Shown piece by piece: positions 1 through 33,669 of a DNA stretch of 33,669 nucleotides. The stretch covers positions 1-33,669 of the forward strand of contig JAMPGZ010000031.1 of the NCBI GenBank assembly GCA_023663655.1, in the 5' to 3' direction. The stretch comes from Lachnospiraceae bacterium. Lineage in GTDB: Bacteria > Bacteroidota > Bacteroidia > Bacteroidales > Muribaculaceae. Under the pieces are notes generated by a model. It saw only the letters and a program-made list of their open reading frames with translations, was not told the origin of the DNA and ran no database searches. Made by a program: the position numbers and the translations under genes. The stretch's first letter is position 1; every line of letters begins with the position of its first letter.

Positions 1-8
1 AATATATG

Positions 9-403
9 GAGTTCCGGAGGAACGATACAATGGTTCGCTCTTACAGAGCTTGATTTTAATTATCGACCAATTTACCCAGCATTTCGCTAACGCTACATAC
101 TGGGCTAAGCTCTTGCGGTCATACTGACCGCCTCTATTACAACACGAACAATGCGGAATAAACTCATAACCCAGTATCAACATAAAACCCGGATTGACTC
201 GGCATTCTTTACCCGGCATTCCGCTGACGCTACATACCGGGCTGGGCTCTTGCGGTCATACTGACCGCCTCTCATACAACACGAACAATGCGGAATAAAC
301 TCATAACCCAGTATCAACATAAAACCCGGATTACACGGCATTCTTTACCCGGCATTCCGCTGGCGCTACATACTGGGACATCTTGCGGTCATACTGACCG
401 ATT
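9..403 (-). repeat. Left A-type hairpin array: leader block plus two and a half 136-137 bp units
   Basis: A leader block (9-70) holds two short hairpins: 11-23 (stem GTTCC, loop GGA) and 37-49 (stem GCTCT, loop TAC, read as GTA on the minus strand). Repeat units follow, starting at 71, 208 and 344; the third is cut off near 403. Each unit has a 30-base hairpin (75-104, 212-241, 348-377) and a second hairpin with stem GCGGTCA and loop TAC/GTA (115-131, 252-268, 385-400). On the minus strand the 30-base hairpins have arms CCCRGTAT and ATGCYGGG and a tetraloop GTTA, GTCA or GCCA. The whole stretch is the reverse complement of 33091-33477, nearly identical over the outer 150 bases and visibly diverged further in. 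Open frames through it follow the repeat and do not look like genes. Confidence 0.9.
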
Positions 404-423
404 TTGTCTTGGGTATTTTTATT

Positions 424-586
424 GGTTGAAATTGGTGGACGTCTTCGACGCCCGTTTGTTTGTGCCCCTTTCTCCGCGCCTCGGCTTCGCCTCGTGGCGG
501 AGCTACGATTGCATTGCCGTTGCACGGCATTTATGGTAGTTTTTTTGTCTGTATTCAGATGATGAATCTGAAAGATTCATTATCTG
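424..586 (-). repeat. B-type hairpin block and a long 14-bp hairpin
   Basis: 437-453 is a hairpin with stem GGACGTC/GACGCCC and loop TTC (GAA on the minus strand). Near 476-506 an imperfect hairpin is centred on GGC-TTC-GCC. 515-529 has stem TGCCGT/ACGGCA and loop TGC (GCA on the minus strand). 556-586 is the longest stem: CAGATGATGAATC pairs with GATTCATTATCTG with one wobble, and the closing T-A leaves a GAA loop on the plus strand. The first three have an inverted, diverged counterpart at 32843-33001. No gene is seen here. Confidence 0.8.
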
Positions 587-669
587 GTTATTTCCTGATT
601 GCAAATCGCCGAATGTATATATAGATGATTCTTTCAGAAACAATTTGTAAACCAACGCTTTCCGTGGGT

Positions 670-779
670 CTCGCTATGCTCGGCCCACGGCTACCCAAAG
701 ATGAATCCTTGCGGATTCGCACACTCGCTATTCTCGGCGTACGGCTACCCAAAGATGAACCCTTGCGGATTCGTATGGG
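670..779 (-). repeat. C-type tandem repeat, two 54-56 bp units
   Basis: Two tandem copies begin at CTCGCTAT (670) and CTCGCTAT (724) and share the segment GGCTACCCAAAGATGAA. The first ends in a perfect hairpin at 703-718, with stem GAATCC/GGATTC and loop TTGC (GCAA on the minus strand). The second carries one stem change (GAACCC). A related hairpin with the same stem and loop GTAA lies at 33063-33078 in the opposite orientation. 587-669, before this block, shows nothing recognisable. Confidence 0.8.
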
Positions 780-789
780 CGAGACTATA

Positions 790-852
790 TAGCTTCTGCG
801 AAGCTAATAGTCAGGCAGAGATAAGCAGCCACACACGAGTGAAGCGAGTGTG
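790..852. repeat. Two further GNA-loop hairpins before the tRNA gene
   Basis: 790-806 is a perfect hairpin with stem TAGCTTC/GAAGCTA and loop TGC (GCA on the minus strand). 832-852 has outer stem CACAC/GTGTG, then two opposed G-A mismatches, then G-C and T-G pairs closing a GAA loop at 841-843. Neither has a T-run, so they do not look like ordinary terminators. The G-run near 860-867 has no assigned role. Confidence 0.7.
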
Positions 853-897
853 GAGTTGACTGCAATCGCGGGGGGGCGCTTCTGCAATTGGGTAATG

Positions 898-927
898 AAA
901 AAGCCGGCAGCGATTGCTGTCGGCTTT
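898..927 (-). terminator. Terminator of tRNA-Leu
   Basis: The stem AAAGCCGGCAGC (900-911) pairs with GCTGTCGGCTTT (916-927) with one wobble and a four-base loop. On the minus strand it follows the tRNA 3' end directly and is followed by five T. It is a standard rho-independent terminator. Confidence 0.85.
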
Positions 928-928
928 G

Positions 929-1010
929 TGCGCACGAAGGGACTCGAACCCCCACGTCGTTAGACACTAGATCCTAAGTCTAGCGCGGCTACCAATTACG
1001 CCACGTGCGC
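929..1010 (-). tRNA. tRNA-Leu (anticodon UAG)
   Basis: On the minus strand the acceptor arms GCGCACG and CGTGCGC pair over seven bases and leave discriminator A. The anticodon stem CTAGA/TCTAG encloses loop CTTAGGA, giving anticodon TAG, which reads CUA leucine codons. The T arm contains GGTTCGAGTCC. The 82-base length and enlarged variable arm fit a class II leucine tRNA. CCA is not encoded, so it must be added after transcription. The gene sits between its own promoter (1025-1055) and terminator (898-927), directly beside the hairpin array. Confidence 0.95.
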
Positions 1011-1024
1011 AAGATTTAGTGCTG

Positions 1025-1055
1025 CAAAGTTACAAACTTTGATTTAAATGAGCAA
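1025..1055 (-). promoter_or_regulatory. Promoter of tRNA-Leu
   Basis: On the minus strand TTG (1053-1055), a 20-base spacer and TAACTTTG (1025-1032) match the Bacteroidetes -33/-7 consensus exactly. The -7 box ends 14 bases before the tRNA 5' end. Confidence 0.8.
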
Positions 1056-1061
1056 AAATAT

Positions 1062-1103
1062 GGAGCAAAATTTCCCGAAAAATTCATCAGGAAATTTTGC
1101 TCC
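1062..1103 (-). terminator. Terminator of the glyS-lemA-FKBP-glmS operon
   Basis: A perfect 14-bp stem (1062-1075 with 1090-1103, arm GGAGCAAAATTTCC) lies just after the glmS stop on the minus strand and is followed by ATATTTTT. Confidence 0.9.
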
Positions 1104-1112
1104 GTATGTAAC

Positions 1113-29531: not shown

Positions 29532-30815
29532 ATGAAAAATTATCTTTTTACATCCGAGTCAGTTTCTGAAGGACATCCTGATAAAGTGGCTGACCAGATT
29601 TCTGATGCCGTTCTTGATGAATTTCTTGCCTATGATCCATCATCGAAGGTGGCTTGCGAAACTCTTGTGACCACAGGTCAGGTGGTGATTGCCGGAGAAG
29701 TTAAGAGTAACGCTTACGTTGACCTCATGGAGGTGACCCGTGGAGTGATCAATAGAATAGGCTATAACCGCAGCGAGTTGATGTTTGACGGCAATGCTTG
29801 CGGTGTTTTCTCCGCTCTGCATGAACAGAGCGCCGATATAAACCGTGGTGTTGAACGCGAAAATGCCGAGGAGCAGGGTGCCGGCGACCAGGGTATGATG
29901 TTTGGTTATGCTTGCGACGAGACTCCCAATTATATGCCGCTTGCGATTGATCTTAGCCATCTTCTGCTCAGAGAGCTTTCTGAGGTGCGTCGTGAAGGCA
30001 AGGTGATGACCTACTTGCGTCCTGATGCCAAGAGCCAGGTGACAATTGAATATACTCCGCAAGGTGAGCCTGTGCGTGTGCACACCATCGTTATTTCCAC
30101 TCAGCACGACGATTTCATTTCGCCTGAGGAAGCCGGTTCGGTGGAAGAGGCTGACCGCAGGATGCTTGCCAAGATTAAGCAGGATGTGGAGGAGATTTTG
30201 CTTCCGAGAGTTAAGGCGAAGTTGTCGGATGGTGTAAAGGCTATGTTTGACGAAAATCTTATACTTCATGTCAACCCCACCGGCAAATTTGTGATCGGAG
30301 GCCCTCATGGCGACACCGGTCTCACCGGTCGCAAGATTGTAGTCGACACTTACGGTGGTAAGGGTGCTCACGGCGGTGGCGCGTTCTCAGGCAAGGATCC
30401 GTCGAAAGTTGACCGCTCGGCGGCATACGCTGCTCGTCATATAGCCAAGAATCTCGTGGCTGCCGGAGTGGCTCGTGAAGCTCTTGTGCAGGTGGCTTAC
30501 GCTATCGGTGTGGCTGAGCCTGTGAGCCTGTATGTGAACACTCGCGGCTCGGCGAAGGTGAACATGAGCGACGGGGAGATTTCTGAACGCGTGAAAAAGC
30601 TGTTTGATATGCGTCCCTACGCTATCGAGAAGCGTTTGAAGCTGCGTGCCCCCATCTATCAGGAGACAGCCGCTTACGGTCATGTGGGACGCGAGCCGAT
30701 GACTGTGACAAAAGTGTTCAATTCCAAGTATGAGGGCAAGAAAGAGATTGAAGTCGAACTCTTCACTTGGGAAAAACTCGATATGGTCGACGCGATAAAG
30801 AAAGAATTTGCATAA
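29532..30815 (+). CDS. metK: S-adenosylmethionine synthetase
   Basis: MetK makes S-adenosylmethionine from methionine and ATP, supplying methyl groups to the cell. The 427-residue protein has the expected signatures: [20 protein letters not shown] near the N-terminus, [12 protein letters not shown] as the first family signature, and [19 protein letters not shown] as the second (P-loop). Slightly longer than the 380-400 residues of E. coli-type enzymes, it is in the usual range for Bacteroidetes. The gene stands alone, with its own promoter, a SAM-II riboswitch in the leader and two terminators behind it. Confidence 0.98.
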
Positions 30816-32842: not shown

Positions 32843-33001
32843 CCCACGAAGCGATAGCCGAGGCGCAGAGAAAGCCCCACCACGAAAGGGCGTCGAAAAG
32901 AAAGCCGTGAAGCGGCAAAATAATTTAAGCTCCGCCACGAGGCGAAGCCGAGGCGCGGTGAAAGCCACACCCCAAAACGGGCGTCGAAGACGTCCACCAA
33001 C
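32843..33001 (+). repeat. Right B-type hairpin block, two diverged copies
   Basis: Two related segments (about 32850-32900 and 32934-33001) share GCCGAGGCGC, AAAGCC and GGGCGTCGAA. The second is the inverted counterpart of 432-512 and keeps the hairpin GGGCGTC-GAA-GACGTCC. Between them, 32904-32916 is a hairpin with stem GCCGT/GCGGC (one wobble) and loop GAA. 32795-32842 is C-rich with no visible signal. Confidence 0.75.
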
Positions 33002-33062
33002 CAAATATCCCCCAACCACCTCTTCAAAAAACGAATCCGAAGGTCATCGGCTTACCACAAGC

Positions 33063-33078
33063 GAATCCGTAAGGATTC
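33063..33078 (+). repeat. Right C-type hairpin
   Basis: Perfect stem GAATCC/GGATTC with loop GTAA. The left copy (703-718) has the same stem and loop GCAA on the opposite strand. A degenerate relative (GAATCCGAAGG) lies about 30 bases upstream. Confidence 0.75.
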
Positions 33079-33090
33079 ATCCATTGGTAT

Positions 33091-33477
33091 TTCCCGGTAT
33101 GTAGCGCCAGCGAAATGCCGGGTAAAGAATACCGAGTCAATCCGGGTTGTATGTTGATACCGTGTTGTGAGTCGATTCCGTATTGTGAGTCGATTCCGTA
33201 TTGTTTGTGTTGTAATAGAGGCGGTCAGTATGACCGCGAGATTTCCCGGTATGTAGCGCCAGCGAAATGCCGGGTAAAGAATACCGAGTCAATCCGGGTT
33301 GTATGTTGATACCGTGTTGTGAGTCGATTCCGTATTGTTTGTGTTGTAATAGAGGCGGTCAGTATGACCGCAAGAGCTTAGCCCAGTATGTAGCGTTAGC
33401 GAAATGCTGGGTAAATTGGTCGATAATTAAAATTAAGCTCTGTAAGAGCGAACCATTGTATCGTTCCTACGGAACTC
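33091..33477 (+). repeat. Right A-type hairpin array, inverted relative to 9-403
   Basis: 30-base hairpins lie at 33093-33122, 33245-33274 and 33382-33411, with loops GCCA, GCCA and GTTA. Companion hairpins with stem GCGGTCA and loop GTA lie at 33221-33237 and 33355-33371. The leader-block hairpins follow at 33437-33449 (stem GCTCT) and 33463-33475 (stem GTTCC). 33165-33200 is a perfect tandem duplication of an 18-base segment. From 33477 inward the sequence is the reverse complement of 9 onward. Open frames across this stretch follow the repeat. Confidence 0.9.
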
Positions 33478-33500
33478 AAAAAACTGTGTGCTCACGATTA

Positions 33501-33556
33501 CCCGGCATTTCGCTGGCGCTACATGTCGGGCTAAGCTCTCACGGTCCTGCAGACCG
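33501..33556 (-). repeat. Extra A-type copy in the opposite orientation
   Basis: 33501-33530 is another 30-base hairpin (GCCA loop on the minus strand), here facing the neighbouring array. Its companion at 33542-33556 keeps the CGGTC/GACCG stem, but the loop region is CTGCA in place of the usual TAC. Confidence 0.8.
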
Positions 33557-33627
33557 CATCCCACAATCCCGTCAAAAAAATCACCCAAGTGGGACAAAAA
33601 GTGGGTAAATCCCCTCAATCCATACAC

Positions 33628-33635
33628 TACCTTTG
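33628..33635 (+). promoter_or_regulatory. Probable -7 box of the gene at the right edge
   Basis: TACCTTTG matches TAnnTTTG and lies 23 bases before an ATG at 33659. I see no clear TTG at the right distance upstream. Confidence 0.5.
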
Positions 33636-33658
33636 TGACAAAACAAATTATCACGAGA

Positions 33659-33669
33659 ATGAAAACCCG
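33659..33669 (+). CDS. Start of a gene cut off by the window edge
   Basis: An ATG followed by AAA ACC (Met-Lys-Thr) comes 23 bases after a consensus -7 box. A Lys residue right after Met suits an exported protein, but nothing more can be said from three codons. Confidence 0.35.

Follow-up and report, generated by a model that had tools for sequence, protein, structure and literature searches.

The window analysed here, a stretch of 33,669 nucleotides, is the entire contig C24 of a draft assembly (45 contigs, 2.90 Mb in total), and its left end poses the question of why hairpins with different stems should share one kind of loop. The initial annotation had read at least nine unrelated stems in this part, each capped by a GNA or GNNA loop on one strand, and had suggested selection for folding as single-stranded DNA. 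No convincing gene was found in positions 1-900, ahead of the tRNA-Leu; the open reading frame at 288-539 is a mechanical frame within repeats and was not taken as a gene. A scan of 1-852 for perfect hairpins (stem of at least 5, loop of 3-4) gave hairpins at 11-23, 37-49, 115-131, 252-268, 386-400, 515-529, 562-580 (inside the 556-586 listed before), 703-718 and 790-806, and all nine carry a GNA or GNNA loop on one strand. The count of nine thus stood, but the earlier list itself did so only in part: at 832-852 CACAC/GTGTG closes over a larger loop and is not GNA-capped, and the stem at 437-453 contains a G.T pair. When the span was widened to 1-1110, the share was nine of ten.

The nine perfect hairpins comprise seven distinct stems, as those at 115-131, 252-268 and 386-400 are copies of one stem. 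At a chance of about 1/8 for a GNA/GNNA loop, seven out of seven corresponds to p = 5e-7, a post hoc figure because the region 1-852 had been chosen for its loops. Folding as single-stranded DNA, in comparison with shuffled sequences, gave z scores of −5.6 for the 14-bp hairpin at 556-586, −4.9 for the long hairpin of family A with its neighbour (70-135), −3.2 for family C, −2.9 for 786-856 and −2.3 for 9-55. The fold of the family B end is not convincing (z −1.5; 19 of 200 shuffles equally good).

Most of these hairpins fall in three repeat families rather than being nine independent elements, so that 'unrelated stems' remains a fair description of the families and not of the hairpins one by one. 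The full unit of family A lies at 9-155 (minus strand) and matches a 127-bp unit (window 9-135; 67 matches in the genome) at 98%. It contains the hairpins GTTCC-GGA-GGAAC (A-H1; 11-23, plus strand), GCTCT-GTA-AGAGC (A-H2; 37-49, minus strand) and GCGGTCA-GTA-TGACCGC (A-H4; 115-131, minus strand, with the further copies at 252-268 and 386-400), same-stem hairpins being of GNA type in 12/14, 19/21 and 25/26 cases, respectively, in an 816-kb sample of the genome. Between the second and the third of these stands a long bulged hairpin (75-104; 75-108 on the minus strand with its foot TTAG at 105-108). Two partial copies follow at 181-292 and 318-403, and the inner loops of the long hairpin in the three copies are GTTA, GTCA and GCCA. 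A family B end occupies 431-538 (minus strand), with GGGCGTC-GAA at 437-453 (one G.T), a long hairpin with a GTAG foot and the inner loop GAA at 472-506, and TGCCGT-GCA-ACGGCA at 515-529. A family C end occupies 611-720 (minus strand), with a long hairpin and GTAG foot at 662-694 and GAATCC-GCAA-GGATTC at 703-718, and a second, partial copy is found at 724-776 (minus strand; direct repeat D4). The inner loop of the family C copy at 662-690 is ATA, an exception to the loop rule.

Two hairpins stand apart from these units. The 14-bp hairpin with a GAA loop at 556-586 (plus strand) has the core ATGAATCT-GAA, which is also the stem beside the Y1 gene at C11:147432. The 816-kb sample contains no second copy of the hairpin TAGCTTC-GCA-GAAGCTA at 790-806 (minus strand; perfect-hairpin scan), and a cognate Y1 gene was not found; the hairpin is perhaps a remnant of another family. 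At the opposite end of the window, 32901-33560, all three families recur in the opposite direction and in the order B, C fragment, A, as a family B copy (32901-32995, plus strand), a family C fragment with the hairpin GAATCC-GTAA-GGATTC at 33063-33078 (33060-33125, plus strand) and a family A array reversed with respect to 9-155 (33094-33560, plus strand). Part of a multicopy sequence of about 400 bp, which occurs at 88-97% identity in several contigs beside family A arrays at several sites (e.g. L028:2302-2703), is present at 33560-33635. The contig starts in a family A array (1-155) and ends soon after another (33094-33669), which makes an assembly break at the repeats probable. Apart from tRNA, a search of the window against Rfam returned only an ordinary SAM-II riboswitch (RF01726; 29388-29446) upstream of an open reading frame at 29532, which, named by eye, reads like S-adenosylmethionine synthetase.

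The identity of the families becomes apparent from their matches elsewhere in the genome. Nine Y1_Tnp (HUH) genes are present. Three types of them, all located outside this contig, have flanks that recur here at 9-403, 431-538 and 611-776. The 127-bp unit forms a dense array around the Y1 gene at C40:1404-1739; the full element at 9-155 matches the flank of this gene at 91% over 147 bp, and the partial copies at 181-292 and 318-403 match its flanks at 87% and 87-88%, respectively. The family B end matches at 76-93% the flanks of the Y1 genes C27:9117-9455 and C11:267575-267910. Block 611-776 matches the flanks of C18:744-1082, C27:20102-20440 and C11:147432-147773, at 75-86% for the family C end itself. 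The copies at 724-776 and at the right end were likewise recognised from matches to Y1 flanks, with repeat matches in addition for the family A array. The earlier suggestion of Y1/HUH targets of REP/RAYT type is therefore supported by the repeat families matching the flanks of Y1 genes, and a Y1 gene surrounded by the same stems, as had been proposed for checking, is that of C40. The first reading, which had inferred one common enzyme, is refined to several enzymes of one subclass, each with its own stems. Positions 1-776 and 32901-33560 are thus probably made up of elements from three dispersed families, each of which would have its own cognate Y1 enzyme of subclass 1.2. A count of flank-like places in the 816-kb sample gave family A 23, B 20, C 35, D 4 and E 14, about half or more of them lying outside mechanical open reading frames.

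Other enzymes of the HUH class, such as replication initiators, relaxases and phage types, likewise use hairpins, and the repeats might be targets of one of these. Such an origin is extremely unlikely, since it is Y1 genes that are flanked by the same stems, and comparison with phages returned matches to the tRNA only (best 5 of 170 records).

Inspection by eye of seven Y1 loci of this genome (C40 and C3 being outside that set) revealed mirror-image ends at six, namely both on C27, that on C18 and three on C11; such ends were not seen in the flanks of the C21 gene. At C11:245807, for example, GCACTCT-GCAA at −90 is mirrored at +8, and TGCCT-GAA at −170 at +94. Going towards the gene in families B, C and E, one meets a GNA/GNNA hairpin, then a foot with a bulged long hairpin, and then a GNA hairpin. 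Family A departs from this arrangement: its full units to the left and right of the C40 gene share one orientation, and mirroring is confined to the partial units closest to the gene. The foot is GTAG in families B and C, TTAG in A, and TAG or TAA in E. Beside these genes, too, some loops depart from the rule: TGCCGT-AAA upstream of C27:9117, and GAATCC with GAAT or ATTC at C18 and C11:147432.

Family E, whose Y1 gene is C11:245801-246238 (L024:2799-3245), has about 105 bp in common between both gene ends and 13 copies that lie apart from all Y1 matches. Its layout is TGCCT-GAA-AGGCA, a spacer with TAG or TAA at its end, a long hairpin with bulges and an inner loop that is mostly GCA, and GCACTCT-GCAA-AGAGTGC. 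Pairing is retained in 97.7% of the cells of this structure, and covariation is seen at one pair only, C-G to T-A on both sides, in 4 rows. At the position of the family E gene, four syntenic congeners (G037, G138, G144 and G146) hold an open reading frame of 178-195 amino acids between the same neighbours. The site L028 was also tried as an empty-site test and rejected, its flanks not being syntenic; no clean empty site was found at L028 or at the family E locus in the four congeners. The 127-bp unit of family A matches only one of 14 genomes of the genus, that of the window itself, while a longer query gave a weak A-like match in G140 (74% over about 100 bp), and relatives of the C40 enzyme in other genomes of the genus are distant (27-37% identity among the matches listed). 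The near restriction of the unit to its own genome, together with the distance of these relatives, fits a joint arrival and spread of enzyme and repeat.

As to the enzymes, HUH and a Y...Q..HH motif are present in eight of the nine genes; the ninth frame (L001, at C27:20102) stops directly behind the Q of the tyrosine motif, so that the gene looks truncated. The tyrosine motifs read YIKGQKEHH, YIQNQRIHH and similar, the nearest to that of IS200/IS605 being YIETQ, and Y...Q..HH is found in all 55 genes recognised in relatives. By motif, the enzymes of this genome belong to TnpAY1 subclass 1.2. Of the eight proteins scanned, seven exceed the cut-off of the NCBIfam model NF033573 (IS200/IS605), the C40 protein remaining below it (43.6 vs 55), and all eight are below the cut-off of NF047646 (REP transposase); among solved structures, the ISHp608 transposase matches best (2a6m, E 1.6e-15). 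Alignment matches at E 1e-10 occur in 19 of 39 genomes of a family sample and 44 of 99 of a phylum sample, both of which include the own genome, a few of the weakest matches being other Y1 proteins (the only match of G094, L158, is devoid of HH, and those of G126 are unconfirmed). Other positive genomes of the family sample hold 1 to 5 Y1 genes each. One relative (L271) lies on a contig labelled Verrucomicrobiota, and GNA triloops are absent from its flanks.

The initial annotation had proposed that loop counts over the genome be set against controls. The 816-kb sample covers 28% of the genome; with a stem of at least 6, triloops in it are of GNA type in 37/88 intergenic hairpins as compared to 45/260 coding and 31/314 shuffled ones, and tetraloops are of GNNA type in 24/81, 24/219 and 23/299, respectively. 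The excess becomes small once copies are collapsed (triloops 9/57 vs 34/245 coding; tetraloops 18/73 vs 21/216), which indicates that in this genome it is carried by the repeat families. Comparison of flanks across species is a stronger test than counts within this genome. In the flanks of Y1 genes at 52 loci of relatives (250 bp on each side, stem of at least 6), GNA-type triloops make up 67/88, against 13/156 in shuffled flanks (Fisher p 5e-28, treating the hairpins as independent, which they are not fully). The set derives from 58 loci (L077-L134), from which L124, L126 and L131 (no recognised Y1), L095 and L103 (own genome) and L102 (same recognised gene as L080) were removed. Among the 67 GNA hairpins, the inner stem takes 39 different sequences, and 51 of the 67 close with a C-G pair. 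The GNA reading lies on the coding strand rather than the other in 25 vs 6 upstream hairpins and in 8 vs 28 downstream ones; the loops thus tend to point in mirrored directions on the two sides of the gene.

A second set, 28 loci collected along a different route (29 before the identical protein L252 was skipped; L276 and L277 are without a complete Y motif), gave the same picture, with 51/63 GNA-type triloops against 8/89 in shuffled flanks, the GNA reading on the coding strand rather than the other in 18 vs 4 upstream hairpins and 8 vs 21 downstream ones, and closing pairs C-G in 39 and T-A in 12. At least one GNA triloop with a stem of at least 6 is present at only 27/52 loci of the first set and 19/28 of the second. 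No excess of GNNA tetraloops was found in the first set (13/57 vs 27/190 shuffled), while a group of TNNA tetraloops in one subclade stands out in the relatives. Hairpins located 400-1400 bp from the genes of relatives are intermediate (23/66 of GNA type). A TAG foot precedes GC-rich long hairpins 9 times against 0.6 expected, in 6/52 loci only; this result comes from a stricter scan, the first foot scan having yielded noise.

Twenty random stretches of 20 kb from five genomes without these Y1 genes showed no excess (9/57 GNA-type triloops), and neither did twenty from four genomes with them (7/36), which rules out the loop excess as a general trait of intergenic hairpins. The rule therefore applies to the Y1 ends and their copies and not to intergenic hairpins in general; where a genome does not have many copies, it cannot be seen away from the Y1 loci. 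Among 30 loci taken as a control with Y1 genes of other classes, nine were without the motif and only L156 and L158 were recognised as such, two loci being too few.

The loop bases were also compared within families of this genome. Besides the three family A hairpins given above, GNA/GNNA loops account for 13/14 of B-H, 4/5 of C-H1, 8/8 of C-H2, 11/11 of E-H1 and 5/7 of E-H2. Core loops of family A are GCCA (14), GTCA (11), GTTA (9) and one each of GCTA, GTAA and TGAT, and those of family B are GAA (9), GATA (6), GACA (2) and GGA (2). Departures from the commonest base by loop position number 1, 16, 12 and 1 in 37 copies of the A core, 1, 5 and 0 in 13 of A-H1, 2, 6 and 0 in 21 of A-H2, and 1, 4 and 0 in 14 of B-H; A-H4, when counted with shorter arms, lacks this pattern (3, 2 and 3 of 28). 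Within families, the loop middle varies while G and A are mostly kept.

These observations bear on the possibility of passive inheritance, by which old Y1 flanks would have been spread by recombination or by other mobile elements and the GNA loops, now unread, simply inherited with them. Family A arrays do adjoin the 400-bp multicopy sequence at several sites, and Y1 genes and their flanks are inherited together. Inheritance alone is nevertheless unlikely, as the loops agree while the stems differ between loci (39 distinct inner stems for 67 hairpins), and as the middle of the loop varies within families with its ends mostly constant.

Loop type was further compared with the enzyme tree, which has 71 rows (8 own, 52 of relatives and 11 more). 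The 45 rows labelled as mainly GNA/GNNA and the 11 labelled as mainly TNNA are separated by a single change, 15 rows without a clear label lying outside this two-label count. All 11 TNNA rows fall in one clade of 14 rows with a support of 97, which contains no GNA row; the loops concerned are TTCA, TTTA and TAAA (L121, L122, L128-L130, L132-L134, L168, L183 and L184). Labels rest on stems of at least 5 in 300-bp flanks with thresholds set by the authors, and the tree is a quick one with four long branches and near-identical proteins retained. Since copies and relatives are not independent, both the retention of loop bases and the result on the tree are arguments from pattern.

The hairpins could also act at the RNA level, as terminators or stabilisers of mRNA whose loops are stable in RNA, as GNRA tetraloops are. 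GCAA and GTAA belong to the GNRA loops as well, and window 1-1110 contains five terminator-like sites against 1.2 expected, four of which are GNA/GNNA hairpins on the plus strand. A role in transcripts is nonetheless distinctly unlikely: it is GNA triloops that are in excess, on either strand and with a polarity mirrored around the Y1 gene, a feature for which a transcript would have no need; the excess is missing from random intergenic stretches of other genomes; and the loop type tracks the enzyme tree.

Recognition by the Y1 enzymes remains the preferred explanation. The same kind of loop on unrelated stems suggests that loop shape contributes to recognition by these enzymes, which have been little studied, and the best argument for recognition of the loop is the subclade with another loop type. 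On this sequence evidence, the GNA loop is likely to be a recognition feature of the Y1 enzymes of subclass 1.2. According to PMC6479982, the strand turns compactly in a GNA loop, with G and A joined in a sheared pair, and among the TnpAREP enzymes compared in PMC8266576 certain loop letters are required by two of three tested, the E. coli enzyme not needing them. Most of the Y1 genes are flanked by mirror-image ends, in which, as a rule, the hairpin farthest from the gene has a GNA/GNNA loop, a longer bulged one with a TAG-type foot comes next, and the one closest to the gene has a GNA loop; gene-less copies of these ends have spread through the genome like REPs or TIRs. In the mechanism envisaged, the ends would fold where the strand is single, e.g. 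on the lagging-strand template. The enzyme would then recognise the capped hairpins together with the family-specific stem and foot and, by analogy with known systems, might cut and join one strand at a site set by the foot, so that copies spread. Taken together, this would amount to a REP/TIR system that is common in Bacteroidota and driven by Y1 enzymes of subclass 1.2, with a loop shape (the sheared G.A turn of GNA) as the shared mark on several hairpins per end, stem and foot as a private address, independent families coexisting in one genome and one subclade having switched its loop, the loop code thus changing with the enzyme, a scheme for which the chances stand about even.

Several known systems come close to these elements. 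The TnpAY1 enzymes of subclass 1.2, as described by Quentin et al. 2018 (PMC6006769), are small proteins of Bacteroidetes with Y...Q..HH, HUH and WQ or similar, as are those found here; the tables of that paper enter the subclass without associated secondary structures and at an average copy number of 1.7, whereas hairpin-bearing flanks, dispersed ends and nine genes in one genome are found here, so that its description as generally lacking typical terminal structures is amended by the present data. Subclass 2.6 of the same paper is also from Bacteroidetes and has 'atypical secondary structures' in its flanks with copies in the genome, but its tyrosine motif is YIH[QN]NP and not Y...Q..HH. In TIRtrons (TIRYT), as described by Di Nocera et al. 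2013 (PMC3733652), a tyrosine transposase gene likewise lies between inverted repeats, copies of which are dispersed singly, as dimers or in groups. Some TIRs are partly self-complementary and only some share a GGGGWSAS motif in that account, which ties Bacteroidetes to CGTC repeats that have no transposase, and the GNA loop rule is not stated in the sections of it that deal with these repeats.

REP/RAYT systems (TnpAREP, class 2; REPtrons) resemble the present one in having dispersed hairpins cognate to a Y1 gene and several families per genome, each with its gene; the importance of loop letters in two studied cases (PMC8266576) is a further likeness. The GTAG foot of families B and C may be another, the GT[AG]G foot of REP hairpins being set here against TTAG in family A and TAG or TAA in E as well. 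They differ in their class 2 motif (Y..NP) as compared to Y...Q..HH, in the several hairpins per end found here, and in the loops, which are TY or CMA for many GTAG repeats according to the repeat descriptions of PMC3733652. IS200/IS605 (class 1.1) is nearest by sequence, as evident from NF033573 and the ISHp608 transposase 2a6m, but its Y[IV]ENQ motif is absent from the genes of this genome, and here gene-less copies exist and the ends are mostly mirror images with several hairpins.

A search of the open-access literature, with subscription journals and preprints outside its scope, found no description of GNA-loop repeats with subclass 1.2. As far as that literature shows, it is new that subclass 1.2 is linked to hairpin ends dispersed in the genome, that unrelated stems share a GNA cap, and that one subclade has another loop in its place. 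Hairpins of this kind can break assemblies and give rise to spurious open reading frames and terminator calls, and both ends of the present contig lie in or next to them. With these ends, subclass 1.2 gains a likely DNA partner, along with the prediction that the G and A of the loop matter and its middle does not. If true, the proposed system would account for a class of intergenic hairpins that is common in Bacteroidota.
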